Assembly: GCF_000341285.1 (NCBI RefSeq)
Contig: NW_005178445.1
Coordinates: 1-64,000 of the forward strand
Length of the DNA stretch: 64,000 nucleotides
Source: Galdieria sulphuraria
Taxonomy: Eukaryota; Rhodophyta; Bangiophyceae; Galdieriales; Galdieriaceae
Direction: 5' to 3'
Every line of letters starts with the position of its first letter. The stretch's first letter is position 1. Shown piece after piece: positions 18,701 to 64,000 of the stretch. Position numbers and translations under genes: made by a program. Below the pieces are notes generated by a model, which worked only from the letters and a program-made list of their open reading frames with translations, did not search any database and was not told the DNA's origin.

Positions 18701-19818
18701 TATCTTTAAAAGTTGTGGTTTTTACAAAGTTTACCGTACAAGAGGATGCAGCAAAAGCCTTTAAACAGAAACAGTCATGTTTACCTTCAAAAACACCTCA
18801 AATGTATAGTCGACTACTGAGGAGAAAGAATTCAAACTATGATTCAAATGCTATGCAATGACAATCGATAGAATAGACTCAATTCGACTGAATTGAATTT
18901 TTCTTGAAAATATCTTTTCTCCTCTTAACAGAATCCACAGTATCAAATGCCACTATTTTCAGAGGAAAAAGAAACAGGAGCTATTGACTCTTACAGAAAT
19001 TGAGTATTGATGATACACTTGTGTGAGTCAATGTTGTTTCTGAGATTTGATAACACAACGAGATATTTTGGATCCTTCTTTGCGCATTTGTTTTGGTTTG
19101 TCTTTTGCTATCATCAACCTTTGTAGCTTTAGTGATAAGCTGCTACTTGTCATGATATCGTAAGAAAGGAATTTGATGATTGCTGAGAATAAAACACTGC
19201 TATGCTTGCGGGTTTCTGCATTTCTACTAAATAATATACTTCAACTGGAGCTTTTGAATAGACTACACAAGAGAATGACTTGGTTCATAATCTAGATCCG
19301 TGTTTTGAAATGAAGCAAAAGTGACGTAAAAACTGTTCCATAAAATACAGAAAATCTAGAGAGAGACGTCTACGGAACAAATTCTTCATGAACAATCTAT
19401 ATTACTCGGAACTCTCATGACTACTCTCGAAAATTCTGAAAGAAACGTTCTTATCTATGTGAGAATGGGCCATGTTTAATAGCTTTATACTCTCAAAGAG
19501 CATAAAAAACTTGTGAAATAAACATTGGCTTCCTTCCAATCCTTCTTGTACCCTATGAGAGTTGCCATTATATTAGCATACGAGAATAAAAATATCGATA
19601 GCTGAAAAAGCCATATTGATCGTTCTTCCATAGTTCAAATCATCTCAGTCCAAGCCATAAAGGGTATGACATAGTCATCAGTTGATAAAGAGAAGAAGTT
19701 GGATTGGTATCCTTTACTATTTTCCTTGTTGTTGTTGTGACCGACAAACAATCAATTGTTCATTTATTTATATTTGTACTCCGAAATAAACAGAAGATTG
19801 TTTCATTTCACTTTGGCG
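9771..19818. other. About 10 kb without a convincing gene
   Basis: Only short ORFs. The most protein-like are the open stretch at 18356-18664 (+, 102 codons, no ATG at its start, ends FFILEEIIALLELYRS) and 15577-15834 (-, 85 codons). Neither has recognisable homology or clear splice partners. Short GTT/GCT triplet runs occur near 15420 and 15585. No tRNA, snRNA or tandem array was found by eye. Given the gene fossils elsewhere in the window, decayed genes beyond recognition are likely. Confidence 0.45.
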
Positions 19819-21933: not shown

Positions 21934-23867
21934 ATTCTAACTCAATCCTTCCCTTTGTTTTGAAGAGCAAATAAACTTTTTTTTGTATGTTTGAAACTTG
22001 GTTACAACTTATTTGCTTGTCTTTTGGACACCATACAGTCTTCCTTGAAAAGAGTTTATTAGTTGGCTTTCAAGGCTGGCTTATAATCGTTTCGTGTCAA
22101 TTTGCAATAATATTGCAGAGTTGTAACAATGATTCAAAATGAATAGACTATACATACATACATGTTGATACAACTAGAATGAAAAATATCCTTTCTTGTC
22201 CAAATACTTAGTAAAGTGGTTACCCAAAGAATATCTCAAAACATTCTTCAAGTGTCTGCTATGTTGTCTTTCTAGCCTGTTGAAAAAAGAACAGTAACTT
22301 TTTTACTATAATTTTCAAAGACTGAGACAGAAAAAGGTTGTTTGTACATTTCACTTGGACTGTCCTTCTTGTCTTTTGTTAACTGAATAGAAGAGAGTTT
22401 TCCTCGGTTTTAGACCAAACGAAGGGAATGGCAGCAAAAACTTGAGGCTTCCTCTAACTTGAGAACCTGCACTGCGGTCTAAAAAAGAGTTTTAGCTTCT
22501 TGAAATTCGATAAAAGTTTAGATTCCTTTCGTTTTTATGTGTTTTTTTCAAACTGCATTTCTAGCCTTAGAATTCATATAAATGGCTCCCACAAATATGA
22601 AACTTGTTGGATCCAAGAGAAAACATAGCAAAGGTAAGAAAAAATACTAAAAAAAGTATTTTAGTTTGCAATTCAAACTCTATCTCAAAAGTACTAACAA
22701 CACTATATATCCAAACTCTGTTTTAGTGAATTAGACTAAAAACTCACCGACTCTTAGATAGGGAAAGTAACCCGGTTGCAAAGATGATATTCGATATAAA
22801 AAATTTCGTTTGACTATCAATAGAACAAGAGACATCTTAAATGAATCTACCCATGTGACAAACAGAGAAAAAAACTTTCTATTTCAGAAAATCACTATTT
22901 ACAGAGGAGTTCTATTTATATTGCATTGCAAAGGACAACTTTGAGAGTGGAACAGAATTGTTTCTAATTAGTCAAAGGAAACCATATCCAATCTTCAAGT
23001 ATTGTCATTCCACAACAATCACTTGACAGATAACTTAGGAACTACAAAGTCTCTCAGTCAAGAGTCATGTTGGGTAAAAGTTCTTCAATATGGAGTGGCT
23101 TTCAGTTGGAGAATTGCTGAAGCTTTCAAGTTGGTACACTACTCGACCTTGACTCAAGTATGAAAGGCTTCTTCTTTAGTAAAACAATTTTTTGGCTCAG
23201 TCTTTTGCTCTTTTTTCAGCATCGATATGTGCAAAATGAACGGTTATAGTGACTACATTTGAAGCCTTTATTGATGTCCTTATATAAGACATATTCACAA
23301 CTTTTTAAAGTCGAACAAAGGATAGACAACTTGTGTAGCTATTACATCAATAATGGCTTGTATTTAATGATAAGTCAGTATGACAATCTACATAATACAC
23401 TTCTCCAAATTCAATTAGATATTTTTGTATTTATAAACTGCTACGAACGGTTACAAACTAACAGACTTCCCATTCATTGCAATTCTCTGTTTCCCACTGT
23501 ATTTCGTCTGTAACTTACAAAAAGCTTGTATCTAATTAGACTTGTATATAGGAGTTTGCGTGTAAGATAGTGTGGAAGATAGTAGAAAAACTCTCTTACA
23601 GTATACAAGCCATAGAAAGAGTACCAATCAGTCTAATTCACCACAAAAACTCATAGAAACCTATTTCTTGTCTATAGTAAAAGAAAGTTTCTAGTTATGA
23701 CAAGCAAGAAAATATTCCTGCTTTCTCTCTATTGTCATTGTGAGTCTAGAAGTGTCAACGAGATCATTTCTACCAATCACCAAATAAAGCAATCTCTCGA
23801 ACAATAAAACATACACTCCTTCCAACTCCTTTGAAAGTCAATTGATTTCGGATTGGCGGCGTGTAAA
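21934..23867. other. Spacer between the two NTPase paralogues
   Basis: No supported gene. At 22582 an ATG opens an 18-codon reading (MAPTNMKLVGSKRKHSK) that ends at a good donor, GGTAAG, at about 22634. No convincing following exon was found, so it may be the leftover first exon of a lost gene. Confidence 0.35.
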
Positions 23868-26354
23868 ATGAGTTTGAGAGAACCGTTGATAGACAGAAAA
23901 GAAGATGTTTATTCTATTCTTCGAACTTATTTCCACCAGTTTTCTTCAGTTGACGGAAAATTGAACAATTTACGTCCTGCAGCGTGCTTTTCTCCTCAGG
24001 TCTTTGGAGCTGGCAAGAGTTTTGTTGGAGAAAATTTTTTAGAGTTTTTAAAAAAATTCGCCGACGAAGAAGAAGAGCAGACGAAGACGGAGGTTTTCAA
24101 CAAGAGCTCATCGGGAAAAGTTGATTTGAAGATTTTTTCTTGGAAACACTTTGCGGAAAACACTTTGTCAGTTTGCTTTAAACTAGAAGAGGGTTTTTCT
24201 CGTGCTCCTTTTCCAAGGTTTCTAGAGGCTTTGATGTATAATATAATTTTGAACGCTTATCGACAAAATGGTAAAGATACGGACGCTCTTCAGATGGCTC
24301 AGAGGATGGTAAAGAAATTCGATACTGTAGGAGCTATTGATTATCTTCTCGAACAATTTGAGAAACAATATTTATTTTTGATGATAGACGAACTTAGCCA
24401 TCTGAGTTACCTCACCAAATACTATAGTGAACTCACCAAGAAACAGTTCATCGAGTCTGACCCAAAATATGTACCTTTTCGGAACTTCTTCCGCATTCTA
24501 CGTAATTTGTTGATTACAGGGAAGGTAATTGTCTATTTGGCAGGTCGAACTGCTGAAATCTCAGCCCCCCTGTCTGATACTCGCTCCAGTAGTGTCACCC
24601 TCCATATGTTGCGGTTGAATCCCTTTAATCTCCATGATATTAACGAATATATTGAGCTGGCAACTTATGATGGAAAGTCCTTGAAGGACTAGTTATTGCC
24701 CTCCGATGATTTACAACATCGATTCGTAGAATTGTTGAAAAAGAAGACAGGAGGTATTCCGTTGATTGTAAGGAATACTTTATTAGCCCTAGTAGAGAAA
24801 GTTGCAAACTTATCTCAACCTGTTATCAACGATGAAAATATGGAACCCTTATTAGATAGAATCTTTCAAGAGATACTAAAAGAGTCAGGAACCTTTATTA
24901 TTCCAGAGATACTAGATTCCGCAACCCTTCTTCGATATCAATTCGTCCTTTTGAATTATCAACTCGGAACAATTTTCCCAATCAAATTTGCAATTACTCT
25001 ATGTGGAACGAAAACTTATTTGATGGACTTGGTTGCAACTTTTGGGTTTTATTCTGAAAGTTGTGGAACTGACGGGATTGATACGGGCACTAAGTTCAAG
25101 ATTGGTTGTTGTGAATTTATATTGAGAGCTCATAGCAACTATAACTTTTTCCGTGAAGCTACTGAACTCTTTCCTTTATCTCCGTTTAGTTATATTCCCG
25201 ACACTTCAACAGCAAAAGGAGTCTTCTTTGAATTTGTATTTATGAAGATCTTTCGCTTTCGCTTATTAACTTTTCTTCATTCTAATTCCTCGCCTATTGT
25301 ACATTCTGCTATTCCAGGAATTTTCCAGGGTTCTTTTATTGAACAGGACAATGTTTCTTATTCTATGGAATCAACAAAATCTTGTGATATACCCATCTTG
25401 AGAAATGTCTCTGATTCATTTTCTGACGATTATAGAAAACATTTACAACATGGTGGTATTTTTGTTCCAAAAGATGGCAATTCGAGTGGCCCTGATGCAT
25501 ATGTTGTATTCCATAATGGACAAACACGTTATGTTGTTGGATTTTCATTTAAATTTTATCACAAAACTGAATTTTCGAAAGCAAATATTAAGAAAGAAGC
25601 CAAAAAATTTTTCAAAGAAGTTATTTCCGTTTTGAATAACGAATCTCCTTCATCTGTTCAACTTTGTTTTCAGTTTGTGGTGGTACTTTGTACTAAATAT
25701 GATCGATCTGTAGGTTTCTCTGTCGAAGAACAAAATATTGTTGAAGATGCAAGTGATTTGGTAACTCAACATTCTACTACTGGGTCAACTTTGAATGAAA
25801 GTAGTCGATCATGTATGCAATTGATAATTGTTTCCCAAAGGAACCTTGAAAGATATTTGGGAATAGATAATGTCGATATTTTGAGGAAAATTGAGAAAGC
25901 AAACCGAGAAGAGTTCAGTAAAGACTTTTCAGTATGGTGCAAAACTCTCTTTGAGTCGATGTCCAATAAATATGTTTCATATTTGGAAGCTGAGCAATCA
26001 AATGTTACTTCAAGAGTGGCTCAAAATATAAGACCGAGAATAAATGAGGAGAATCGTATGCAAATGGAAGGTTTTCAAAGTTCTATACAACTGGAAAAAG
26101 ATAAAACAAGAAGAGAACAAGTATCGAGTGATATAAATACACATTTTGACTGGAAAGAGTTTCTTTGCAAGTCTGCGTTATTACCGGAAGAAGTTGCCAC
26201 TCGTTATGCTTTCACATTTCCTAGTATATTTGGAGATAATCCTCAAGTGATTCGAAGAAAGTCACTAGAGTTGATGGGTATACCAGAGCAATACATTCAA
26301 AAAATTCTAAGAGCTGCAGTATTACTGAAAGAAAACACAGAAATGAAAGAATAA
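23868..26354 (+). pseudogene. Paralogous NTPase with nuclease-like and SAM-like domains; apparently broken
   Basis: Tandem paralogue of the gene at 19819, same strand, 1.9 kb downstream. The start is the ATG at 23868 (MSLREPLIDRKEDV); LIDRKEDV matches VVDRERDV of the first copy. Parts in order: Walker A VFGAGKS (about 24000), Walker B YLFLMIDEL (about 24370-24395), long helical middle, nuclease-like core GPDAYVVF (about 25488) and VGFSFKF (about 25540) followed by KEAKKFF (about 25590), and a C-terminal block (26149-26345) with the WKEFL...LELMGI...KIL pattern of a SAM domain. The reading frame carries about one break, so I list it as a probable fossil; whether any product is made is unknown. 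As in the first copy, the acidic/Gln residue before the catalytic Lys is replaced, here by Ser. Confidence 0.65.
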
Positions 26355-28125
26355 TCAGCTGCTTTCAAATTTGTGTTATTGAGAGACATTCTTTTTAGAA
26401 AATAGAGTGGAACGTAGGAGAGAGAAAGAGAGAGAGTTCTTTGTGCTTTTATTCTAATTGAAGCTTACAACAACAAAGCGTATCTCTGTTTGTAAGCTTT
26501 TACATTTTCCATGAAAACGGACGAATAAAACTATGTTTTTTGTGTTGAAAAACGCTGGTTGAGTTTAACTAAAAAGAGAGGATGTGTGCACTCAATCTTC
26601 GAACTCATTGTTGTTTGGCTGGCACGTAAAGACACAAGCTTGTCACTTATGCAAATTGGTCAGCTTTTGAATACTTGAACGAGCAAGTTGAGAACAAAAG
26701 TTTCATTGACTAAGAATTTGCTTGATCTGCTTGTGGTTTCTATGCAAGGAATGATCCAGAAACTACTTCGTCGTTATTATACCTAGAATTTGTAGTTTTT
26801 TCACTATTTATTGCAAATATGCGTCGAGTAACTTCTACTTATATCTAGCAATGCCAATGACATATATGTGGTCTGTTCCTTTTTGGACATCTTCTCAAGT
26901 TTACTTTTTCTTTCAAATTTTAGAATCCGCATATTCTTATGAATATATCCAATGGTTTTTCTCTTGTTGCAAAGTGAGCAAGTCATCATAGTCTCGTGAA
27001 TGATGTTTGAAAAGTTGAGAATTTGGATGGAAGAATATTGTTGCAGCATATATACATATGAGGACCATGTTATGTTTATAAAAAAAAATGACAGATTATC
27101 TATAAATAAATAAATGCAGTACTGAATAAAAATGACATGTTGGTTCAGAAAGACTATAGAAGAATAAAGATTCTCTCTCGATCAATGCCTTATTCGAACC
27201 TTCCTATGCATTCTAGATAGCAACACTCTTGAGACCGTCATGCGGTTTGAATCACAATATGAAAGCCACAGCAAACAACGATTCTTCTGATGAATTTGAA
27301 GAGGGAAATGTATTCAAAAATGGCCTTGACAATTGAGAAGCAGAAGAGTCCAAGGCCAACTATAATATCTAGTAAAACTGCCTCAAGGGGACGTAAGTGG
27401 TAAAAGTTTCAAAGACTAGTGATAGTCAATGTAATTGAATCCTTGCTCAGCTATTGTTGAACAGCCTTGACAAAAAAGTCTTCCATAGACGGGACTATAA
27501 GGCATTCTTCGAGTAGTACATGATATGATACAATGAGAACCCTTGACAGACAACTTTGCTCTGCCAGCGGAAGAATACTTGAATTTACGTTCAAGGCACC
27601 ACTTTCAACACAACAACAACAACCATGAGTCGATGATACTGCGCTACTGTTATGACAGGCAACCTTTGCGAAGTCTAACATGCATTATAATATTATTATG
27701 CTAGTCAGAAAGTGAACAGCAGAGAGTTTGACTAGCAGAGACATCCTCAAATCAACCAAGAATAATACGTGCAATCAAAACGACCAATGGAGCTCACTGA
27801 AAGTCGTTAAGGAATTGGTTGCTGAATTCATGTTCTTTCTTGAGGCTCTATCACCAGAATTAAAAGAGAATATACTCTTAGGACACAATTTATGACCAAG
27901 CTTTATGGAATCCTCAAGATTTCTAAACTCGAAAGAAAAATGCTGGTTAAACTCAACTTGCTTTTGCACTTGCAACGACAAGTATGTGTTTTGTTGCCGT
28001 TTCTTCACAATCAGTTTCCTTGGCCAACATTGATTCCTTTTGTATTCTATAATAACAAAAATTTAAAAACACCTATTTCTCTTTACACTTGGCTTCTCTT
28101 TTCATAGAACCCTAAAAAACAGTAC
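26355..28125. other. Gene-less stretch
   Basis: A short purine-rich gag/aga run follows the NTPase end (about 26417-26435). The minus-strand ORFs at 26804-27049 and 27451-27681 have no recognised homology. Nothing else is supported. Confidence 0.45.
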
Positions 28126-28132
28126 AAAAAAA
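28126..28132 (-). terminator. Pol III T-run after 5S rRNA
   Basis: Seven A on the + strand, so TTTTTTT on the minus strand, directly after the 3' end of the 5S rRNA: the usual RNA polymerase III stop signal. Confidence 0.75.
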
Positions 28133-28133
28133 C

Positions 28134-28249
28134 GTACGGCACTTGGGGTTCCCGAGTGATCCCTCACCTCAGTACTAACCAAGCCTGAGGGCGCTTAGCT
28201 TCTGAATTCGAAATGGGTTCAGGCGCATGTGCCACTAGTATGGCCGTAC
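28134..28249 (-). rRNA. 5S ribosomal RNA
   Basis: On the minus strand a ~116 nt sequence begins GTACGGCCATACTAGTGG and ends CCCCAAGTGCCGTAC. The two ends pair to form helix I (GTACGGC with GCCGTAC). The loop/A-box region AGAAGCTAAGCGCCC and the GGTTAGTACTGAGGTGAG and GGGATCACTCGGGAA segments are classical eukaryotic 5S features, including the internal Pol III control region. It stands alone, outside any rDNA repeat or tandem 5S array in this window, and is followed by a T-run. Confidence 0.95.
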
Positions 28250-28944
28250 ATATTTGGAAGAGTTGTTAAATACTATTTATACAAATGGACATTATTTCAT
28301 ACAAGTAATTGCAAAGAAAAGAATCCAGTGTGAGAAACAGTAAATATTGTAATGTGAATAGTTTTTTATACAAACACAAGTTGCAATTTTGTTATATAAC
28401 CAAAGCGTTTCTCATTATATCATTTGAGAAAAAAGTTCTGTACAACGTCCATTCAAAAGTAACTTGAACCTTACTAAAAGCCATTCCAAAGTTTATAACA
28501 TGGATAAAACTAATTCTTTTTTGAATAGAAATTTCGTCACGATATACTAGAAACGTTTCTACAATATAAAAAAAGTATAAATTGGGTCTTGATAAATAGC
28601 CATCTTCCATTATTGATACTATAAAAAGGTATATTTCAAGTATCAACTGATCGCAAGAAATTTTGCAAATAATAGGAGAATACGGTGACCTCGACATTTC
28701 CTCCTTTTAGCTGTGACTGCATTTAGAAACATGTAATTGTCATGGGACCCATCGCCTACTTGTCTGCCAAATGGATGCAATCGGCATCGAATTTCCAAAA
28801 TTAGTAACAATTCTATGATTATCCAGATTACATCTAACCAAATGAAACGTCAGCATCGATGCTTTAAATAGCTTTATGAAATAGAAACTTTAAGCGTATA
28901 TTGCTATTCTTCTTTTTCGTGTCTCCAATATTTTTTTGACAAAC
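28250..28944. other. Spacer upstream of 5S (-) and secreted protein (+)
   Basis: AT-rich spacer with no supported gene; the minus ORF at 28392-28697 has no ATG-anchored or homologous content. It must carry the upstream regions of the divergent 5S gene and the 28945 gene. Confidence 0.4.
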
Positions 28945-30135
28945 ATGAAGAGATACCTTTGTTTATATGTAACTGTTATACTTGTAATAGCATTAACAGT
29001 TAGTTTTGCAATGGCAGATACAAATACATTTTCTTCTTCCTTTTCCTCTGGAAATGGAGAAGCTTCAGGATTCTCCTCTTCAACGGATGGAAAACAATCC
29101 TCCGCATCCAACTCCCAAGTCGATTCTACTGGAAATGGATCTGCTGCTTCTGAAGATTCCAGCTCTACTACTTCTCAAGGCACCTCTAGTTCATCCATAT
29201 CTTCTTCTGTAGGCTCTGCCAACGCCAAAGGTATTACAGCAGGTAACAATGGTAAGAGTTCAACAGCAGCTGGTTCTAGTGCGTCTTCCAGTCAAGATGG
29301 TGCTGCAATAAGTTCAAGTGGTTCAACCAGTTTTGATAAGAATATTAGTGGAGTGAACTTTCAAGGTTCACAAACCACTAATTCATCTTCCTCTTTTGGA
29401 AGTGGACAAGGGGATTCTGCTTCTGATAGTAATACTCCTAATACAAGTTCAGAAAGCACTACAGGAACAAGTGGCAACGCTGCAGCAAAAGACTCCTCAA
29501 GTAGCACTTCTGGACCTAGCGGAGTGACAAGTAGTACAAATGCCAATGCTAAAAGTAGCTCTAGTGGTTCAGCAGCAGCACAAGGAACTGCCAAAGCTTC
29601 TACAAACTTGAGCTGTGTTTGGCAGTACAAAGAAAAGTGTTTACCTTGTGCTCACATTGAGAACGATGTTTGTAAATGTTACTGGAATGTATCGGATCAA
29701 TGTATATGTACGAATTTAACTTGTGCAAAGCCTTTGTTTCAAGCAAGTGTGGAATCCAGTGCCACCGCATCTTCAAGTGATGGTGGTTCTTCTAGTGCAG
29801 GAGCTAATGCTGCTTCCAGTCAGTTGAGTGGCGGTGCCAAGTCTCAAGCACTAGGTTCAAGTACAGGGTCAGGCTCCGTCAGTGCTTTGAGCCAAGCACA
29901 AAGTATTTTGGATCAGGCAGAAGGCAGTGTTCAAAGTCAAGGTTCTAGTTCCAATGGAGGAGACTTTGGCTCACTTTCTGGTAGTTTCTTTCGCCAAGGT
30001 ATCCAAGTGACAGCTACTTCCAATAGCTCTGAGTCTTGTTCTACTGTTGGTCCTTTTCAACTTGACTCTGTACGCTTTTCTTTTCTAAACACTGCTGATG
30101 GAATGGTTTTTCTACAAATTTGTAGCACGGCATAA
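28945..30135 (+). CDS. Secreted Ser/Gly/Ala-rich low-complexity protein with a Cys island
   Basis: A 396-residue protein from the ATG at 28945. Residues 1-24 (MKRYLCLYVTVILVIALTVS...) form a signal peptide with likely cleavage after FAMA. The rest is low complexity: Ser, Gly, Ala, Thr and Asn, with many SSS and GSS runs and possible N-glycosylation sites. About residues 224-260 form a compact cysteine island with about ten Cys (CVWQYKEKCLPC, CKCYWNVSDQCIC, NLTC), and two more Cys lie near the C-terminus (ESC...QIC). It is likely an extracellular, cell-wall or mucilage protein, with the Cys island disulfide-bonded. I recognise no family; the repeat-like parts may drift fast. Confidence 0.8.
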   Translation: MKRYLCLYVTVILVIALTVSFAMADTNTFSSSFSSGNGEASGFSSSTDGKQSSASNSQVDSTGNGSAASEDSSSTTSQGTSSSSISSSVGSANAKGITAGNNGKSSTAAGSSASSSQDGAAISSSGSTSFDKNISGVNFQGSQTTNSSSSFGSGQGDSASDSNTPNTSSESTTGTSGNAAAKDSSSSTSGPSGVTSSTNANAKSSSSGSAAAQGTAKASTNLSCVWQYKEKCLPCAHIENDVCKCYWNVSDQCICTNLTCAKPLFQASVESSATASSSDGGSSSAGANAASSQLSGGAKSQALGSSTGSGSVSALSQAQSILDQAEGSVQSQGSSSNGGDFGSLSGSFFRQGIQVTATSNSSESCSTVGPFQLDSVRFSFLNTADGMVFLQICSTA

Positions 30136-35766: not shown

Positions 35767-36609
35767 TTATACATTATCTCGACTTAATCTTTGATGAATG
35801 CCTAAAGTGGCTAGTCTATCAGCTTCTTCATTGCCTTTTAATCCATCATGTCCTTTTACCCAAACAATTTCTATTTTAGCTTTACTTTGTTGATGTACTT
35901 TGTTCCATAAATAGTCCAGACGTTGAATAAGATCCAAATTCTTCAACTCTCCTACTTTTCTTTTCCAGTGGTTAAGTTTCCATTGTTCCAACCAACCTGC
36001 AGTTAAAATATCCTTTACATATCTGGAATCTGTATAAATATATATTTCAGCTTCTGATTCATAAACAATAGGTTCCTTACAAACACTTTCCAAAGCAGCT
36101 ATCATAGCACTCAATTCTGCACGTTGGTTGGTTTGTACTTGACCCAACAATGGTCTACTTATATTTCTTGAGTCTCCATCACCAAAATAAACTCCATATC
36201 CTGCCTTTGCACTACAACTTCCATTCGAAATACAAGCACCATCAGTATATAGTTTAAGTATACGCTTCCCTTGTTCCTTATATTGTGGATTGACACAAGT
36301 AAAAGGTTCATTAAATGGAACATGGAATAGAAAAGTTCCAAAGTCTTCTCCTAATCCTGCTAGAGTTTTCACAAATTCTTCAGCTGCTTCTCTTCTTTTA
36401 AAACTCTTATATCTTGTGTTTCTTACACGATGAACGAGGTCTTTACAAGCATCCCAATTGTCTACTACTCCAGTAAACCCATTCTTACCTCCAACTATGG
36501 CATAATATTTATTTTTTGAGCTATTCCAACGATACTTTTGAGTACGACGACTAGTCTTTTCAGTCAAGGCTTTCGAAACGCGACCCGCCAACATCTTCTG
36601 TGTAGACAT
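35767..36609 (-). CDS. Ribonuclease H1 with N-terminal hybrid-binding domain
   Basis: A 280-residue protein from the ATG at 36609 (MSTQKMLAG); the frame stays open to 36798, but that start would run to within 5 bp of the divergent gene. A basic N-terminus (about 1-35) may be a mitochondrial or plastid targeting peptide. The hybrid-binding domain (KYYAIVGGKNGFTGVVDNW ... YKSFKRREAAEEFV) lies at about 35-85. The catalytic domain follows, with LYTDGAC (first Asp), NQRAELSAM (Glu), IYTDSRYV (second Asp) and VKGHDG...NEEADRLA (His and last Asp): the full DEDD set. It cleaves RNA in RNA:DNA hybrids. No intron. Confidence 0.93.
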   Translation of the reverse strand: MSTQKMLAGRVSKALTEKTSRRTQKYRWNSSKNKYYAIVGGKNGFTGVVDNWDACKDLVHRVRNTRYKSFKRREAAEEFVKTLAGLGEDFGTFLFHVPFNEPFTCVNPQYKEQGKRILKLYTDGACISNGSCSAKAGYGVYFGDGDSRNISRPLLGQVQTNQRAELSAMIAALESVCKEPIVYESEAEIYIYTDSRYVKDILTAGWLEQWKLNHWKRKVGELKNLDLIQRLDYLWNKVHQQSKAKIEIVWVKGHDGLKGNEEADRLATLGIHQRLSRDNV

Positions 36610-36802
36610 GCCAAGCTTTGGTATGACACCCCAATATGTCCAACAAAGAGATGACCACCTAATATGCGTATGTAGACCAAAAGAGTAACACAGTCGACTG
36701 TTTCGTTTCCAATTCAACCAAATGAACAACTGAAAACCAATCATCATCAAACAACTGCCATTGCTTTTTGGAACATTTTCTCCCTCCCAAAAAGCCAAAT
36801 AT
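36610..36802. promoter_or_regulatory. Divergent promoter region, RNase H1 / VTT protein
   Basis: A 193 bp spacer between two start codons that point away from each other; by position it must hold both promoters. No motif is claimed. Confidence 0.4.
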
Positions 36803-37877
36803 ATGAAAAGAGAATACCGTTGTTGTTTTTCATTGATAGGAGTTGTATATCAACTCACTAGTAGAAGATATTACAGGAATTGTTGCAACAGACAACCTAT
36901 TTGTTGTTATAGTCACAAAGGTAGTTTTGTGTCTGTTGCAAAGAAAAATCTCCGAGTAGTTACTCCTCAACTTGTTTGTCGGACAGAAGAGAGACCTTCT
37001 TCTCAACAAGTATCCAACTCGAATAAGAAATATACAACGAAAAGCATCACCAAAGGAATAGCTGTCCTGTTATTATTGTTATTATTTTTGGGTAAGTCTC
37101 TTGTCTATGGAGTGAATTAGGGAACTTCATAGAATATGTCTAGTATATGTTCACAATAATTGGCCTATATTATCGAGGCAAGTTGAAAGTTTGTAAAAGA
37201 TTGTATAGATTCTGAATATTGTGATAGATTGGATATGAAAAGTAGTTTGCAATGGATTCAGTCACTTGATTTACCTTTACGTTTCGTTATTTTCTTTGGA
37301 GTACATACCATAGCTGTTGTTGGTTGTTTTCCTGGTACGGTTGCTATAGAAATGGCAGCTGGATTATCCATGAATCTGTATTATGGACTTGCTTGTATGT
37401 ATACTTCCAAATTATTGGCAGCTATGGTATCCTTTTTATTAGCCAAAAGTATTTTATATCGTTGGACTCAAAAGAGACTTGAACAATATCCACAAGCAAA
37501 GAAATGGATGGATGCTATAGCTCAACAAGGCTGGAAACTGGCATTGTTTTCTAGGTAAGAACGTAATAATATATTACTTAATTCTTATTTATGAAAAAAG
37601 GTTATCGCCTATTCCATCTTTTATCAATAACTATTTGATTGCACTGTCGCCCATCTCCTTTCATGATTATATGATAGCCACCATTGTAGGTATTATTCCC
37701 TTTCTATTTCAAGTAGTAGCGTTGGGTGCTGGTATACAAGAAATGAGACAACAACTTTCATGGATAACTTTATCCAAATACATAGCAATTATTTTAGGAA
37801 TAATAGGGTTAGGTTATTATACCAAGAAAATGTTTCATTCCATGTGGGAAGAAAGCGATCATCACTCCCAAACATAA
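36803..37877 (+). CDS. VTT-domain (TVP38/TMEM64, DedA-like) membrane protein, probably organelle-targeted
   Basis: Three-exon model: 36803-37091, 37209-37554 and 37601-37877; phases agree and give 303 residues. Exon 1 supplies a basic, Ser/Arg/Asn-rich leader followed by a hydrophobic run (GIAVLLLLLLFL). Exon 2 carries FFGVHTIAVVGCFPGTVAIE, typical of the VTT domain start. Exon 3 begins RLSPIPSFINNYLIAL, the family's 'R..P..PF...NY..G' type motif, and ends in two more TM helices. VTT/DedA proteins include lipid scramblases and transporters. The leader suggests plastid delivery, as for cyanobacterial-type relatives in plants. The exon 1 join rests on splice signals (GG|GTAAGT, TATAG|AT), so a shorter protein starting at 37235 is the alternative. 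Confidence 0.75.
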
Positions 37878-43123: not shown

Positions 43124-43256
43124 CAAATTTGAGGGACAAACAAAAATCAATGGTGGTGATCGAATTTGTCTTGGGGTTCTCTTTTGGACAAATACTATCC
43201 GTAGATAATAATTGACTCCCCTACAACCTTTGAATAGCTGATAACCAGTTCTTCAA
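43124..43256. promoter_or_regulatory. Divergent promoter region, DUF1772 / ABCG
   Basis: A 133 bp spacer between opposite start codons; by position it must serve both genes. No motif is claimed. Confidence 0.4.
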
Positions 43257-45654
43257 ATGGCAAACATAGAACCTTTGACAGAAGAAATCAAGCCAGCAGA
43301 TGTTGATGATGCCTATAGTTTCGACCCTCTTGCGCTGATAGATGTAACTTGTGATAATAAGACCGAGCAACAATCGTCTACTCTGAGACCAAAAGTTTCC
43401 CTCAAGTTTGAAGACCTCTGTGTGAATGTTAATGAGAAGAATTTTTGGAAGAAACTTCCAGACGAAAAGAAAATCTTGCAAAATATAGCAGGAACGGTTC
43501 GTTCTGGCCAACTCCTTGTTATTATGGGTCCTTCAGGCTCTGGGAAGACGACCTTGTTGAACGCACTTGCAGGAAGACTGTCTGCATCAGGAAATTTTAA
43601 CGCAACTGGGACAATAACGGTGAACGGAAAGAAAAGGAATCCAGCTACTTTCAAGAAAGTGCGGCAACTATTCTTCTAAGATGTTTTTACGCTCACCAAC
43701 TTTTTAGATAAGTGCATACGTTATGCAGGACGAAAATATGTTTGGAAATTTGACTGTTGAAGAGCAAATTTCCATTTCCGGTAAGTTACGACTTCCGAGA
43801 ACTTTTTCGGAGCAAGAGAAAAGACGTCGTATCGAAGACGTAATTTCTGAGATGGGTCTGATGGAGACAAGAAAAACATTTATCGGTTCAGAAAACAGGC
43901 GAGGTGTTAGTGGTGGGGAAAGGAAACGAGTGAGCATTGGTAAAGAATTGGTAACAGACCCTTCTTTACTATTTTTGGATGGTTAGTTATTTTGATCTGT
44001 TCGTCTTTACATCCTCAAAACCCTGTATGACAGAACCGACTTCCGGACTGGATTCATTCAACGCCGAAAATGTCGTTAAAACGTTGGTTCGTTTATCGAA
44101 GGATCATCGTGCCATCGTGATGACAGTTCATCAACCGGGAAGCAATATATTCAATCTTTTTGATATGCTATTGTTGCTTTCGAAAGGAAAAATAATGTAT
44201 TTTGGACCAGCAAAGAAAGCGGTCTCATATTTCTCTCTTTTGGGATACGAGTGAGTTTTTTTCCGCAAATACCCGTAGTCTATTCAGGGAACTTCGAAAC
44301 AGGTGTCCAAGTCATTCTAATCCCGCAGACTATTTCTTGGATCTAATTGCGGTGGATATTCGTTCATCTAAGCTAGAACAGGATTCACTTTCCCGTATTG
44401 CATTTCTTCATAAAGCATACAACGAAAATGTATCTCTACAAAACAGAATCAGAGAAAAAGGTGCGTAGAAGTGCATATTTGATTTTTATTCTCAACTTTT
44501 AAAAAATGAAATTCTTATTGGAAAGAGGCCACATGGGAAAGCACAGAAGATTCGAACGGAATGAACGAGAATGAAACTTGGGAGAAGCATCCTTATCCGT
44601 ATTGGATGGAATTTTCTATTTTATTGATTCGTGCATGGAAACTTCTTATTCGCGAAAGAGTTGTTGCTGGAATTCGTACAGTCCAAACCTTGGTGGGATA
44701 TCTTATTTATCATCTTCTATATCTATGTACATTTTGTATTGACTCTGCTTTTCTTTGAATAGATTTTTTCGATACTAGTTGGTCTCATTTGGCTTAACAA
44801 AGGGCGAAATATCTCCTCCAGCAACTATGAAGGTATAGAAGGTGTATTATTTTACATTCTTATCATTCAAAGTTTCATGGCAATATTTGGAATAATATTT
44901 GCATTCCCACTGGAACGTTCGATTGTTTTGAGAGAGCGTGCTAGTGGCATGTATCGAGTGTCCGCTTATTACCTTTCAAAGATACTGGTGGAGCTTCCTC
45001 GAACAATTTTGTTTTGTTTGCTATTCTGCGTTGTGGTAGGAATATATCTTTCAAGGGCGAAATTTGTGCTAACCTTTGAAGTCATATTGGATGATTGGCC
45101 TTCGAGATTCCGTAGACTCTTTTTTTCTCTTTGTTGTTGTCATGCTTTTGAATTCATTGACCGTCGAAGGAATTGCTTTGACTGTTTCTGTATGTAGATT
45201 TAATGTTTTGAAGACACTTTTAATGAATGTTTTAGGCAGCAGCACCAACACCGAAGGTAGCTGCAGTAACCGTACCACTTATTTTAAATATAGCTGTTCT
45301 TTTTGGAGGTGCTTTGTTATCAAACGCAGAGATACCGAATCATTTTGTTTGGTTAAAATTTTCATCTTTTATGAAATATTCATATGGGGCATTGATGCAA
45401 AACCAGTTTGTCGATTTTGCGTTTCAGAGCCTTAGTAAGACTTGCGTCATTTGCGACGGGAATGAAGTTCTTGAAGATTCTGGAATCACCGATTTCTCCA
45501 TGGCGGGAAATATTGGAGTAAGAGAATGCCTCTCAGTTTCGTACTATCATAAATTTTCTATGAACAGATGCTGCTAATGGAATTGTTAGTCTTTCGAATA
45601 GCGGCATATTTGGTTCTACGAATGAGAGGTCCCAAACACGACAAAGCCTTGTGA
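43257..45654 (+). CDS. ABCG (White/BCRP-type) half-size ABC transporter
   Basis: Nine exons: 43257-43658, 43708-43981, 44034-44250, 44303-44460, 44526-44726, 44779-45035, 45082-45189, 45236-45517 and 45568-45654. All phases agree and give 661 residues, the usual half-transporter length. The N-terminal ATPase has Walker [17 protein letters not shown] (about residue 91), Q-loop [14 protein letters not shown], signature [12 protein letters not shown], Walker B SLLFLDEPTSGLD (completed by splicing) and H-loop MTVHQPG. The C-terminal membrane domain includes [32 protein letters not shown] and a Cys-bearing loop (CVICDG). Such half-transporters dimerise to export lipids, sterols or xenobiotics. Introns are 46-65 nt; intron 6 has a textbook GCTAAC branch site. 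It looks whole; the unspliced frames only seem broken. Confidence 0.93.
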
Positions 45655-47275
45655 GCGTTGAAATGCAGTCGGATAGGTATCCTCTGATTGGTTGGAATTG
45701 CCTTTTTATTATAAAGGCAAATGTCCCATTATTGTTTTGTTTTTGTTTCCTTCTTTGTTCTTTGTACTGATGGTGCTTATTTGGTATGGTATCAAAGGTT
45801 GAAAGCTTTTGAAATAACTTTTTAAAAAAGGTAGCAATGATAACAACAAAAATATTTGAGATAGAAATCACAATTCTATCAGGGGGCGACTATCATTTTG
45901 TGTTGAGCATATGCAGCCTCACTCATTCTTTTCAAACTATTACGCTCTCACTTGTTATATTATTTGCGTCATTCTGTCAAATCTTAAAGGTTCCTCTCAC
46001 TTTGTCCCCACATGGTAGTCTTTCCTTTTTATGACGTGAAAAACTTGTTTCATTTTGGCCTTTACGAAGACTTTGAAAGATTGGCTTAGTAACTTCGATG
46101 GAAAGAATCGAAATGCAAGCTTGCAGTTGACTTGTGAAGTAAACTACTATAGTGCGACTGAAACTGGCTTTTAGTGGACAAAATGGTCAAAAACATTGAA
46201 AAGCCACAATCCTTCCTTATTTGCTTCCTGCAGAAAATGGAGTCGCAAAGTATATTTTGCATTCATTTTCAAGTCTGCAACTTTTGCTCGTTTGTTATAC
46301 ATATATATAGATAAGGATGTTGACAACCAAGAGAGTTGTATGAGTTGAAACTGATGTATTTTCGAGTTTATGCCGGTAATGATGTTAGCCAAAAACCTCT
46401 CCATTTTTTCAGTTTGCTTCCACCCGCTAAGACGTTAAGAAGAAGATAGATGTAAAAATTATCGCCGTTGCTTTCTTGATGGACAACTAGAAAGAAATGC
46501 AAAGACTAAGACATTTGCATTCGTAGTTCTTTGGAAACGACCCTGTCGGTTTCATAAATTCTGGGTTTTCGAGGAAATAGCAATTCAAGATCTGAAAGAG
46601 AGATTGAAACAAGAAAGATGTGTTTTTGTGGAATAGATGCTTTATATCGTAGAAGGAAGATATGCAGAATGAAGAGAAGGGTTATCTAGTATTTCTGCAT
46701 TGTAGGAGGACTCTCCGGAGAGATACAATGGTGGAAAAAAAGCCATTTTCCTGCCTGAAAATCGAATACCAGTAGTTCTTCTCTCAAGATGAAAGAATAG
46801 AAACAACCGTCAAATGCTGATTATCAAGAGAAGCTTCTACACTTTTCTAAAAATCAACGCAAAATGCATATCAAAGTATGACAATGTTCTACCGATCTGC
46901 TACAAGACTGTACTGCCAGCTAAGAGCAATTCTCAAAAAAAAGAAATGAATAGTCACTAGCACAAAAAGGAATAAAGTGCAAGCTTCAGTCACCTACGAA
47001 TAATTCTTGTCTAGGTGAAACTCTCCGACCTATCAAAATTACTAAAGGTTAAATATAAGAACAAGAGATCCAAAAAATGGAAACTTTACAAATCGATGTA
47101 AAAGAAAAGATTTGTTGAAGTACATCAACAATGCAGTGAAAGGCAAGTAGGTACAGAGAGAAAAAGGGCTCAACCAGTATAAGAAAAAAATTCCAAACTC
47201 GTTTGAAAGAATAGTATGACTCTAACTGTTAGTCACTTTGCTCCGCGATTGTGTTACGAAGTTTTTTTAAGTTGC
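45655..47275. other. Gene-less stretch after ABCG
   Basis: Nothing convincing. Short ORFs on both strands lack homology, and no RNA gene was seen. Confidence 0.45.
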
Positions 47276-57280: not shown

Positions 57281-58537
57281 ATGGACGGAAATCATTTTAT
57301 TCATTTTTTGGTTATGTGCACGATGATCACAAAAGCACTCAGTTGGAATAGAATATTGAGTAACTATTCCAAACATTTGCTCCAAGTAACTTTAAAAGAT
57401 GGTAGAATACCAGCAAATAGTGTTGTGCTTACAAATACGAATTGGTTGTATACCCATGCAAGTCTGTCTTCCATGACCAATGTTGCTCGCAAGTTGTCAT
57501 ACAACAAACCACTACATACTACTGCTTACTATTGGCAACAACAACAAGAGATTCCATCTTCTTCAAAGTCAGAACAGATTACGCCATACCATCCCGTATC
57601 AGAAAATTTGGATAAGAGTACTGAAGACTATCCTTGGAAGGTAAGCAATGCAATGGATATTCCACCGTGACAAACTCACGAGCTATACTAGTGGAGAAGC
57701 TTTCTTCCAGAACATACTTACAAACCTAATTTAAAAGTCGACTTGACGAGACATCATGACCCAATAGACTTTCGAGACAAAGTAGCTCAAAAAGTTGTCA
57801 AATTTTTGAGAGTGTTTGCTGATGCCTTTTTCAGAAAGAGATATGGACATCGTGCTGTAGTATTAGAAACTGTAGCTGCTGTTCCTGGAATGGTTGGAGG
57901 AATGTTGCAACACTTGCAATCGTTGAGAAGATTCAAACCTTCTGGAGGCTGGATAAGAGTGTTGTTAGAAGAAGCTGAAAATGAAAGAATGCATTTGATG
58001 ACCTTTATGGCCATTGCCAAACCAACGATTCTAGAAAGAGCCTTGGTTTTATTGACTCAAGGTGGTTTCTTTGCATTTTATGCGTTCATCTACATACTGT
58101 AAGTATAATATTTCAGTGGGTCATCAAGAATAATGTCCTTTGTAATAGTTCTCCCAAAACAGCTCATCGTATTGTTGGATATTTGGAAGAAGAAGCTATC
58201 ATATCATATACTCAATACTTGCAAGAGATTGATAAAGGAACTCATGCCAATATACCTGTAAGTAGTCATTGAGATGGATATATTCGTATTCACCGAGGTC
58301 ATTACTGAATAGGCTCCAGAAATAGCTATCGATTATTGGCAAATGGATAAAGGTGCTAGGCTTCGAGATGTGGTATTGGCAGTAAGAGCTGATGAGGCAC
58401 ATCATCGTGATGTCAATCATCTTAAAGCCAATTTGTTGTATAAAAAGAGATATTCGGAACCAGCTCCTGTACAAGCTTTGAGACATGGAGATGTGAATCC
58501 AGAAGAAGCATTTCGAGAAGAAAATAGGTCTACCTAA
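57281..58537 (+). CDS. AOX: Alternative oxidase (mitochondrial ubiquinol oxidase)
   Basis: Four exons: 57281-57640, 57692-58098, 58149-58257 and 58313-58537; phases agree and give 366 residues. The first ~110 residues are poorly conserved and include a mitochondrial presequence; Met12 or Met15 could be the true start. The di-iron carboxylate ligands are all present: LET (Glu179), NERMHL (Glu218, His221), LEEEA (around Glu270) and RADEAHH (Glu320, His323). The enzyme sits on the matrix side of the inner membrane, oxidises ubiquinol and reduces oxygen to water without proton pumping, which relieves over-reduction. Introns are 50-55 nt with GTAAGN donors. Confidence 0.96.
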
Positions 58538-58764: not shown

Positions 58765-59802
58765 CTATTCGTCTTCTTCTGAAGTAGAAGAAGGAATACT
58801 GGATTCTAGATGAGAATAGATCAATTTCTGATGATCACTAGGAATGGACTGGAGTTCTTGTATCCATCTTTCACCGACTTCCAGACGAAGTTCCATTAAA
58901 CGATGAGCAATTTGATTGGGATATATCCACTTGACAGGATGGGTTCTTTGAATAGGAGCCAAACGCAACATATTGAAGAGAAACCCTTGCTTGTTATATT
59001 CTCCACTCCATAGATAAGGATATCCAGATGAAAACTTTTCTTGGTGTTTCCTATATTTTCCAAATAATTTGGCTGCATCACGATATTCCATTAACCATAG
59101 ATAGTCATGATAACTTGTCTCACGAAGCTCCGCGAGATATTCACATACAGCAGCTTCAGTTAACAATGCTTGTAACCTACGATACGTTTCCGTTCTCAAT
59201 GGGGTGGAATCCGAAGTAAAAGGATCATTCTCAAAAATTAAACTACGCAATGGCTCCAAATCAGCACCCACATTGAGTGACAGCTCCATTTGCTGTCTGT
59301 TGATTTCCAAATTTTCTGCAGATACCAAAGCCAAGTCACTAGCACATTCTGCTGCTACTTGTTCTCGTACTCTCATCAGTCGAATGGCTATAGAAGAAGG
59401 ACTTATTTCTATTTCAAACTTACGACTATACGAATGATAACGTGGGTCGGGTCCACTTGAAATTTCAAAAATATGCATAGGCGACTTGAATAGTCTCAAC
59501 AGGTAAGCATAAGAGCCGTCTCGAAGTTCACCTCGGTTGCCAAAATTTTCAAACTCAAGTAACCATGTTCTAGAAAATTCGTCATGCAACTCACTAAAAT
59601 AGTAGCAAAGAGTGTAAATGGCTCGTTTGGTCACAAAATCCTTGACCGTTCCAGTAGAAGGAGTCCAACCAGCCTTAGAAAAACAGTTGAAAGATGATGA
59701 AGGTGAGTGGTCTACTTTTTTTAACTTGTTAAAGGAAATAAAACTATGGATACATTGTTGGTTTTGAAAAGTAGAAGAAATAAAAAGTGAAAAGCAAGAC
59801 AT
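58765..59802 (-). CDS. Conserved-looking protein of unknown function, possibly plastid-targeted
   Basis: A 345-residue single-exon protein from the ATG at 59802. The N-terminus (MSCFSLFISSTFQNQQ, Ser/Asn/Phe-rich, few acids) resembles a plastid transit peptide. The body is soluble and helical with clear coding character: FSRTWLLEFENFGNRGELRD, RLFKSPMHIFEISSGPDPRY and SPSSIAIRLMRVREQVAAEC. It ends in an acidic Ser tail (SSTSEEDE). I do not recognise a family and see no catalytic motif. Convergent with AOX (227 bp) and divergent from the 60003 gene (200 bp). Confidence 0.75.
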   Translation of the reverse strand: MSCFSLFISSTFQNQQCIHSFISFNKLKKVDHSPSSSFNCFSKAGWTPSTGTVKDFVTKRAIYTLCYYFSELHDEFSRTWLLEFENFGNRGELRDGSYAYLLRLFKSPMHIFEISSGPDPRYHSYSRKFEIEISPSSIAIRLMRVREQVAAECASDLALVSAENLEINRQQMELSLNVGADLEPLRSLIFENDPFTSDSTPLRTETYRRLQALLTEAAVCEYLAELRETSYHDYLWLMEYRDAAKLFGKYRKHQEKFSSGYPYLWSGEYNKQGFLFNMLRLAPIQRTHPVKWIYPNQIAHRLMELRLEVGERWIQELQSIPSDHQKLIYSHLESSIPSSTSEEDE

Positions 59803-60002
59803 GGGAATCCACTAACTGAATTGATCCAATAGGACAGGAAGAAAAAGATTTTTTGTAGGATTGTGACGTTTCTTTCTTGAAAATATTTTTCTTTTAAATA
59901 AAAAAAAGTTATATTTAGAGACACATGTTTGTTCAGAAATAGGGTTGTGACTACATAGCTCAAAAGTAACTCACTTTGGGTTGAGAAACATTTTAGTTGG
60001 GC

Positions 60003-60781
60003 ATGTTTTGTGGACCACTTCATTTGTCATATAGAAACCAGTTGTCCTCGAGGGCGACTAGAATATCGTATATGAAACGAAATGGCTTGTGTCACAAACT
60101 TACTGACATAATGTGTTGTTTGTCTTCGTCTCGTATTCAAGAAGGAGACTTGGTTGTAGTGGCTCTCCCCTTTGGAAAATACCGAGTGGCAAAAGTCACA
60201 GGGTTTGATTATTCGGGAAGAACAGCGGATGTGATTTATCTCGAAGAGAAAAAAGGTTTGTATAGAAAAGTCGCTATCTTCGTACTTGTTCGACGTATCG
60301 AGTTTACTTTTCTTTAGCTGCCTGCTTTTATTTACAAGATGAAACCAAGTCATTTGAAGCTGTGGCCAATATGACGCCCATAAAAGCACGTTACAACGCT
60401 ACTCAACTTTGTTATGAAATACCACACTCTGAAATCCAAAAAGTTTTGAGTTCTAGAGGCCCTGTTCCCAAGGCGGTGGTTCGAAATCCCCCACCTGCTC
60501 TTTTTCGAGTCGGCAAACCTACCAGGCAACAAGCTCTATATGGTGCAGGTATATCTATAGGTATGAGTTTGCTTTTCAACTTATTATTTACTCAGATACA
60601 GTCCAATGAGTATATACAAAGCCAATGGTAAGAGTAAGCATCGCATATTGTCGAATGGGAGGTTAAACACTTATCCAGGTTTGCTCAAGTATTATTACTT
60701 TGTATACAATGGATGACTTTTATTTCGTTACTGGTGGGATTCGGGCTGTTGTTGGGAGTTTTTGTGGGTAAATTGGAATAA
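60003..60781 (+). CDS. Two-TM protein of unknown function with an N-terminal SH3/Tudor-like stretch
   Basis: Three exons: 60003-60255, 60318-60627 and 60679-60781; phases agree, giving 221 residues. The start is the ATG at 60003; the first ~40 residues are basic and could be a plastid transit peptide. RIQEGDLVVVALPFGKYRVA then KVTGFDYSGRTADVIYLEE reads like a small beta-barrel (Tudor/SH3-like; 'G..V.A.....Y..A.V......G...V.Y'). Then comes a Pro-rich linker (NPPPALFRVGKPTRQQAL) and two hydrophobic helices, GAGISIGMSLLFNLLF and MTFISLLVGFGLLLGVFVG. Family unknown; membrane location inferred. Confidence 0.7.
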
Positions 60782-61099
60782 AGTTTGCAACTGAATACAT
60801 CATATGAAAAGAGAATCTCTCCCTGGAATAGTTTATAAAAGAGTTTTTTTCTATTGTATTACTGAATAGGCATTCCTCATATTTCTAGGATGTCTCATTC
60901 ATTTTTAATGGCAAGTCATTATTGTGCTGCATTCCATTTTGACCCGCCAATGGGCAAAATTTGAATCCAGTAACGGGAATCTTCATCCCCACAAAGGCAG
61001 CAGTTGATATTCTTGTGACTTGTAGTAGGCACTCGTTGTGTTCTTTGTATGCTTCTCTATTGGATTGAAAACTTTTTGTCCTAGTGAAAAAACCATTTG
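60782..61099. other. Spacer upstream of kinesin
   Basis: No gene supported; it presumably holds the promoter of the kinesin gene. Confidence 0.4.
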
Positions 61100-64000
61100 A
61101 TGATAGCAGAACATTCACTTTATTCGACGGAAAGCACAACAGAAACATCCGATAAATATAAACCAACGGGTTGGAGAAACGCGACAACTTTCTTCTCTTC
61201 AGATAGTACAATTTCTCCTATTCCTACAAAGTCCCTCTCCTCTCTCAGTAATATTCACACTTATAGAGTAACCGTAGAAACCGCGGACGTTCGATGGGCA
61301 GGTACAGATGCGCAAATATTTATAAGACTCATAGGTGATATAACTACGGCTCCTGAGCAACATTTGGCTGGAGGAAACTTTGAAAGAGGCGGTATAGATC
61401 AATTCACCTTTGATATTCCTCACATAGGAAACCTTGTCAAGATAATGGTTCGTCACGATGGAAAAGGTTGGGGTTCTGCTTGGATGTTGGAGAGAATCGT
61501 CGTAAAAGATGAAAACTTGCAAAAAACTTGGGTTTGTAATTGTTCTAAATGGCTTAATAGAGATGTCGATAATATGATGGAACTGGTTCCAACTTGCACC
61601 AATTCCAACTCCTTAAGTAGCTTCCTCCAACGAAGAATAAGTGGCATCTTTTCGAGCAGTTCTCCTGCTAAGAATCTATTTGCATCCAATCCAACCAACG
61701 GAAAAAATAATGTTCTTAAGGAAACATCTCCGAAAACATTCTCGCCAAAGACAGAATCGCCTTATCACGAAGAAACCAGTAAATCTATCATAGAAAGACC
61801 CATAGAACATACTCCCTCCAATCCAATTTCGCCGGTTGAATGGCAATGTAATGGCTCTCCAATAGTCATTCGATTTCATGTCAACTATTTCACTCAAGAG
61901 TCCCAGTATTTGTATGTATGTGGTTCAGCCAAATTTCTAGGTGAATGGAACGCTCAAAAGGCACTAAAAATGAATATGTTTACTGCTCCTGATGGTGCCT
62001 GGAGAGGTGACTGGCGTTTGGAAGTTCAAGTTTCAGAAATTGAAGATTTCCAATACAAATATCTTGTGGTTGATGAAACCAATGGAAACATTACTTGGGA
62101 AAATGGTGAAAATAGAAAGATGGAATTTCATAGGCATACCAGTCAAATGATGAAAGTCAGAGATGTTTGGCATACACCTTCGAACTCTCGGAAGATTATA
62201 ACGAGTTTCACGCCATGCGACTCGAAAACTACTCCTAAAACAGTAAATGATAATGCAACGCCATGCTTTTATCGACAGAACGCATCTTCGTGGACAGACC
62301 CTAAAGGAGGAGATACAGAATTGAAAATGGATGATATTCGAACCAGAGAAGAACTTATCGAGAAAATTCAACAATTACAACAACAATTGGATGCAAAAGA
62401 AGCTAAATTATCCCATGCTAATGCCTTGTTATTACAAAAAGGAATCAGTGCCGTGATGAGTAGAAAGGATGAAAACTTGACTTGGTCGAGGCTAACAGAC
62501 TTTGAAAGAGAAAACAATGAGCTTCGGTCAGAATCTGAAACCATGAAAGAAAAAATAAGCCAGTATGAAAATGATGTGAAGATACTTCAAAAGGAAACGG
62601 AAACCCTAAAGTTACAAGTAAGTGCTTCAATACCTGAGAGAATAACACATGGAAAACTCAATTTTTCTAGTTTGAAGAAGAAATGAACAAGAAACAGGAA
62701 CTGGAACAACAACTTGTACAGCTCCGTCAGTTACAGTTCAAATCTCAAGACGACAAGTGTTACACAAATAATGCATCGAATATACAACAAAGCGTTGTAA
62801 ATGGCTCCATCTTAAAAGTTAAGGAAAGTGTTCAGCTATTGAGTGCTGCGATAGAACAAGTTCGTTCTGAAGTTGTCTCCAGTATTTCTCAAAACGAAGA
62901 GCGAATGAGTCACGACTGCCAGATTCTACACCGAATTATCTTAGAAAACCAACAAAAAATGAACGAATTAAAAGAAAGATGGAGAAAAGAATTCGAATGG
63001 CGTCGAAGGCTTTTCAATCAAGTTCAAGAACTTAAGGGAAACATTCGAGTCTTTTGTCGACCAAGACCTTCTCGCTCATCTTGTGCAATTCAAGTTCTCG
63101 AGGAGAATCGTCTCATGGCAAAAGGAAAGGTCTATGAGTTTGATAGAGTGTTTTATCCAAATGCTAGTCAAAAAGAAGTATACGAAGAAACCTCCTCCTT
63201 GATAACTTCTGTGATGGATGGCTATAATGTTTGTCTCTTTGCTTATGGACAAACGGGAAGTGGTAAGACCTACACAATGAATGGTGATGAAGCCAGTCGT
63301 GGAGTGAATTATCGAGCAATCGAAGAGCTCATTAAAATACGAAATGAAAGAGCAGAGGAGATCCAATATGAAATTGAGATGAGTCTAGTTGAAATATACA
63401 ACGAACAGTTGCATGATTTGATAGCAGGCAGTGATGAATCCTCTCAGTCTATTCATTCGTCGTCTTCCAAGGGCAGTAATACCTGGAGTACTCAGAAACT
63501 GGAAATTAAGCTTAGTCCACAAGGGCCTTATATTCCAGACTTGACTTGGATACCAGTTATTTCTGTCGAACAAATATGGCAAGTGATGGAACAAGCATCC
63601 AATTATCGCTCACAAGGAAAGACAACTATGAATGATCGTTCTAGTCGTTCCCATTTGGTCATTAGTTTAAGGATTCAAGGTCGAAACTTGATAAATGAAA
63701 CGAAGTTGAGTGGCAAGCTTCATCTTGTAGACTTGGCAGGATCAGAAAGGATATCTCGTTCGGAAGCGACAGGAGACCGTCTAAAGGAAGCACAGCATAT
63801 CAACAAAAGCTTATCATGTTTGGGTGACGTTTTCATGAATCTCCTTTCTAAAAACAGTCATATACCCTATCGCAACTCTAAGCTGACATTTTTACTTCAA
63901 GACTCATTAGGTGGCGACTCTAAGACTCTTATGTTTGTTAATGTGAGTCCTGAAGAACCAGACTTACAAGAAAGCATATCTTCTTTGAATTTTGCCAGCA
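61100..64000 (+). CDS. Kinesin-14 with N-terminal PLAT and CBM20 domains (partial, runs off window)
   Basis: Exon 1 is 61100-62617 (506 codons); exon 2 starts at 62671 and stays open to the window end. The intron is GTAAGT...TTTCTAG, 53 nt. Domains: PLAT/LH2 at about 55-155 (TYRVTVETADVRWAGTDAQI, NFERGGIDQF, VRHDGKGWGSAWMLERI, WLNRD); CBM20 starch-binding at about 255-345 (VIRFHVNYFTQESQYLYVCG, SAKFLGEWN, WRGDWRLEVQV, FQYKYLVVDE, WENGENRK); coiled coil at about 405-620; then the kinesin-14 neck ELKGNIRVFCRPRP (about 627) and motor with P-loop GQTGSGKTYTM (about 695), switch I NDRSSRSH and switch II LVDLAGSE. A C-terminal motor with this neck is typical of minus-end-directed kinesin-14. PLAT binds lipid or protein and CBM20 binds starch-type glucan, so a link between microtubules and floridean starch or membranes is a reasonable inference. 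The motor's last part lies outside the window. Confidence 0.92.

Follow-up and report, generated by a model that had tools for sequence, protein, structure and literature searches.

The motors closest in published layout to the protein reported here are the malectin-domain kinesin-14s of plants, MDKIN1 and MDKIN2, which are likewise intracellular and carry an N-terminal carbohydrate-binding fold (PMC7094084). They are described as plant-specific and differ in that this fold is malectin instead of CBM20, PLAT is missing, the motor is central and sugar binding is unproven (PMC7094084). Their moss homologue is dimeric without processivity (PMC7094084), and kinesin-14 processivity can arise upon clustering (Jonsson 2015, as cited in PMC7094084). 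On the side of the storage glucan, a related case is laforin (Cyanidioschyzon merolae, PMC2714694), which has a single N-terminal CBM20 and, in red-algal descendants, acts on the storage glucan, but as a phosphatase and not as a motor. Analysis of a 64,000-nucleotide stretch of Galdieria sulphuraria DNA (the window) supports the presence of a kinesin-14 whose predicted cargo tail combines PLAT and CBM20.

Gene structure

The frame starts at ATG 61100, behind an in-frame stop (TGA 61085-61087), and the gene runs past the window end. Its features are the following:

61100-62617, forward strand: exon 1, residues 1-506, an open frame with a 53-residue Ser/Thr-rich N-terminus, PLAT, a linker, CBM20 and the first stretch of coil
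61262-61567, forward strand: PLAT/LH2, residues 55-156 (PF01477, E 2.4e-15, 57.7 bits against a cut-off of 23)
61865-62143, forward strand: CBM20, residues 256-348 (PF00686, E 4.5e-18, 65.3 bits against a cut-off of 23.3)
62486-62736, forward strand: coiled coil spanning the splice, about residues 463-528, with the intron inside these coordinates (a/d hydrophobic excess, register)
62618-62670, forward strand: spliceosomal intron of 53 nt, phase 0, GTAAGT...TTTTTCTAG, which restores the frame and is of the local intron type
62671-64000, forward strand: exon 2, incomplete because the window stops within it, residues 507-949 with the remaining coil, the neck and the kinesin-14 motor
62983-64000, forward strand: kinesin-14 neck and motor (PF00225, E 5.9e-102; PF16796, E 1.3e-45)

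Exon 1 is free of stops until 62617, so that a single 506-codon frame encodes PLAT, CBM20 and the coil start. The intron is of the GT-AG type, its length is not a multiple of three, and its removal leaves a stop-free frame of 949 residues to the window end. The GC content is 0.390 in exon 1, 0.392 in exon 2 and 0.340 in the intron. The window contains four in-frame GTAAG/YAG pairs joining coding sequence (53-59 nt), whereas decoy motifs give 0-1 of that size, counts that are small and were obtained with a coding threshold lowered after a stricter first run had missed the kinesin intron. The neighbouring alternative oxidase (AOX) gene (57692-58312, forward strand) has at least two short introns, one of 55 nt predicted at 58258 and one of 50 nt (58099-58148, GTAAGT...AATAG) that is homology-verified, its removal restoring the AOX homology. 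Between this gene and the kinesin lies a probable small two-exon gene (60120-60631, forward strand) with a Tudor-like start recognised by eye, a hydrophobic C-terminal segment and no Pfam match.

The two halves are read as one protein because the heptad register is the same across the splice and a similar intron occurs in the neighbouring AOX gene. Two adjacent genes would consist of a PLAT-CBM20-coil protein that ends at TGA 62684-62686 without any intron and a kinesin that begins at ATG 62683. The unspliced read-through frame does stop at 62686 and the ATG overlaps this stop, but no space is left between the two for a promoter, the splice borders are canonical, the intron has the size of the local class, the heptad register is common to both sides and the read-through sequence would place a proline and a glycine in the coil and break it, all of which makes this arrangement very improbable. 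An assembly chimera of unrelated genes is scarcely credible: no point in its favour was found, PLAT, CBM20 and the coil start share one frame, the exons are alike in GC content and the coil stays in register from one to the other. Chance is excluded as the source of the Pfam domain matches. The fusion of PLAT, CBM20, coil and kinesin motor in one protein is well supported at the sequence level, and the single frame across one canonical intron proposed in the first-pass annotation is borne out by the stop-free frame, the intron borders and the preserved register. Retention of the intron would add 22 codons up to TGA 62684-62686 and give a motorless PLAT-CBM20-coil protein; such retention, if regulated, could yield a free PLAT-CBM20-coil tail.

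Tail domains, coil and motor

The PLAT match lies above the gathering score, and its relatives in a phmmer search are polycystin-1 and coral and human lipoxygenases. A single-sequence AlphaFold2 model (pLDDT 78.5) has a predicted beta-sandwich for which Foldseek returns lipoxygenase PLATs first (E 5e-7, probability 1.00), followed by Rab6-interacting protein and lipases. PLAT domains often touch proteins and membranes.

For CBM20, phmmer relatives are CGTases, glucoamylases and human STBD1. When its residues were mapped onto the A. niger glucoamylase SBD (1ac0), site 1 proved complete, with W543, K578, W590, E591 and N595 corresponding to W283, K320, W333, E334 and N338, and the core W563 to W301. 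Site 2 is altered, E267 replacing Tyr527 and F294 replacing Tyr556; the assignment of the A. niger residues to the two sites is well established. Since site 2 varies within the CBM20 family, its tyrosines are no defining feature of membership. Predicted sugar binding is likely, because every site-1 residue is kept. An AlphaFold2 model of CBM20 alone without alignment had a mean pLDDT of 35.2 and was left out of the analysis.

In the coil, the hydrophobic excess at a/d positions of residues 463-504 was reached by none of 500 shuffles, and the best register is identical for residues 463-506 before and 507-528 after the splice. The coil is segmented, significant over about residues 463-518 and continued by weaker segments up to the neck; it is likely to dimerise the motor. 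The Pfam matches Kinesin (residues 650-949, 341.4 bits) and Microtub_bd (residues 611-757, 155.5 bits) exceed the curated cut-offs, and the P-loop GQTGSGKT (residue 699), switch I SSRSH (residue 830) and switch II DLAGSE (residue 860) are intact. The neck GNIRVFCRPRP begins at residue 629, directly before the motor, and in its wider context ELKGNIRVFCRPRP, which is preceded by coil, it agrees with the kinesin-14 neck (L)KGNIRVFCRxRP. By match score to solved motors, which sets the class here in place of a tree, the best relatives are KIFC3 (266 bits), KCBP (260 bits), Kar3 and Ncd (range 266-227) versus 207 for the best kinesin-1. The window ends within the motor at ...SLNFAS, position 322 of 327 of the Kinesin profile, and from the kinesin-14 neck the motor is expected to lie at the C-terminal end. 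Kinesin-14 is the minus-end kinesin class.

Both N-terminal domains named in the first-pass annotation were thus recovered, PLAT by Pfam and by the lipoxygenase-like fold of its model, CBM20 by Pfam and by its phmmer relatives. The long coiled coil proposed there is real as a coil with an a/d signal and is not one long rod, and of the C-terminal kinesin-14 motor the class stands on scores and neck while the terminal position is deduced from the neck.

Host and storage glucan

The GC content of the window (35.8%) and its introns of 50-60 nt fit Galdieria and not the sequenced members of Cyanidium, Cyanidiococcus or Cyanidioschyzon: the Galdieria partita genome has 37.6% GC and 16,347 introns, versus 54.6-65.7% GC and an intron count below 50 in those sequenced from the other three genera (PMC13353863; PMC9812998). 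A weak match to the Rubisco chaperone RbcX (58768-59811, reverse strand, 27.6 bits against a cut-off of 27) suggests a photosynthetic eukaryote. The telomere motif of Galdieria partita is absent from the 64-kb window, a result that is uninformative if the segment is internal, and a scan with bacterial settings detected no tRNA gene in it. Elsewhere in the window are a 5S rRNA gene (28131-28251, reverse strand, 92.7 bits), around which the long open frames of 19741-30132 have no Pfam match; a single open frame for RNase H1 with an N-terminal hybrid-binding domain, matched by the Cauli_VI model (35770-36849, reverse strand); and an ABC transporter gene with several short introns and the ABCG-like order ABC_tran then ABC2_membrane (43245-45800, forward strand).

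Soluble glycogen is found in Galdieria and Cyanidium, and semi-amylopectin granules in Cyanidioschyzon (PMC9424615). The glycogen of Galdieria sulphuraria is of low molecular weight and highly branched (PMC8301940); its chains are very short and branch points make up about 18% (PMC13011383). The first-pass annotation had floridean starch granules as the cargo, a proposal that is not supported for an alga that makes soluble, highly branched glycogen instead; because of this reserve, the moving of glycogen particles is a better reading than that of starch granules, and cytosolic glycogen would be the likely cargo. Over the cell cycle the Galdieria reserve increases about six-fold, to be consumed later, during the dark phase and around the time of division (PMC8301940). 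Given this rise and subsequent use, and since the cells divide by multiple fission, it is reasonable to suppose that the protein has a part in placing or sharing the reserve. Red algae including Galdieria sulphuraria have no cytoplasmic dynein heavy chain (PMC3583065), and a kinesin-14 would therefore be their natural minus-end motor.

A possible glycogen-carrying motor and its alternatives

It is conceivable that the protein links the carbon reserve to microtubules as follows. The protein sequence shows no obvious hydrophobic signal at its N-terminus, and for this reason the protein would be cytosolic. The paired CBM20s of a dimer would grip the cytosolic alpha-glucan, that is, soluble and highly branched glycogen particles, with PLAT supplying a membrane or protein contact. 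Because it offers many chain ends, a glycogen particle could gather many dimers and act as a clustering scaffold. Kinesin-14s that are weak singly would turn processive once clustered, and glycogen would by this means be carried to, or anchored at, microtubule minus ends, so that the reserve is positioned in the cell and divided between the daughters that multiple fission produces.

A glucan-cargo mechanism of this kind is plausible. The model as a whole, in which a kinesin-14 with a PLAT-CBM20 tail carries or holds glycogen at microtubule minus ends, is tentative and falls somewhat short of an even chance. The stricter form, in which the motor takes the storage polysaccharide itself as cargo, CBM20 binds glycogen directly, the multivalent particle brings motors together and so activates them, and the cell positions and partitions its reserve on microtubules, is possible and held with still less confidence. 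In favour of glycogen is the presence of human STBD1, the glycogen tether, among the solved CBM20 relatives retrieved by sequence. Many CBM20s prefer longer chains, and the very short chains of Galdieria glycogen with their frequent branch points weigh against the model on this account. Moreover, the altered site 2 could reduce affinity, and soluble glycogen diffuses, so that a motor may be unneeded.

The protein might instead be an ordinary spindle or microtubule-organising kinesin-14, the tail of which holds a protein, a membrane or another ligand and for which glycogen is no cargo. Most characterised plant kinesin-14s work in division or plastid positioning, and MDKIN2 sits at division structures with a sugar cargo unproven (PMC7094084); PLATs commonly contact proteins or membranes, and the model of this one resembles the PLATs of lipoxygenase and Rab6-interacting protein. 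A complete CBM20 site 1 would be unexpected had sugar binding been lost, and we regard this explanation as rather unlikely. The intact site 1 would equally serve a reserve-sensing switch, in which CBM20 parks the motor on plentiful glycogen and frees it as glycogen runs down towards division; spindle or cytokinetic microtubules would in this way come under the control of the carbon reserve. Such a switch agrees with the climb of glycogen in the cycle and its drop in the dark, dividing phase of synchronised Galdieria (PMC8301940), and a division role suits the kinesin-14 class; it requires a high glycogen occupancy of the tail and the regulation is a supposition, which leaves it improbable. Carriage or anchoring of glycogen is the reading that we prefer.

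Comparison with known systems

A Pfam scan of the 949 residues gave no malectin match, which places the Galdieria protein outside the MDKIN group. Odd kinesin fusions are not rare in themselves, since the main text of a survey of 1624 kinesins reports 105 domain architectures, most of them in one organism, beside 1300 kinesins without another domain (PMC2867816). That main text names neither CBM nor starch (PMC2867816), and no paper on CBM20 or PLAT in a kinesin was found in the literature searched; automatic database annotations may exist. The first-pass statement that no standard kinesin class has this layout accordingly stands for CBM20 and PLAT within that literature, and needs tempering in that malectin kinesin-14s precede it with carbohydrate-binding-fold tails and one-organism combinations are common. 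Back-translated peptides retrieved no homologue from viral and genome contig collections, which cover no eukaryotic set, as expected for a eukaryotic gene.

Among the better known relatives of each part, KIFC3 and KCBP are the best-scoring solved motors and have the neck in common with the Galdieria kinesin, but neither carries PLAT or CBM20, and KCBP has MyTH4-FERM and an end that binds calmodulin. The PLAT of the Galdieria protein belongs to the fold and sequence family found in lipoxygenases, polycystin-1 and Rab6-interacting protein 1; these hosts, unlike the kinesin, are enzymes, channels or Rab effectors. Human STBD1, which tethers cytosolic glycogen, has a non-enzymatic CBM20 that matches that of the kinesin in sequence, but it is a membrane-anchored glycophagy receptor without a motor. 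Known cargoes of motors are membranes, proteins, RNA-protein particles and chromosomes, and a motor tail that directly recognises a storage polysaccharide is, to our knowledge, undescribed. If the glycogen model is true, a single polypeptide joins the carbon reserve to the cytoskeleton in a lineage that lacks cytoplasmic dynein, and would offer a simple way to test how unicellular algae split their reserves among daughters.
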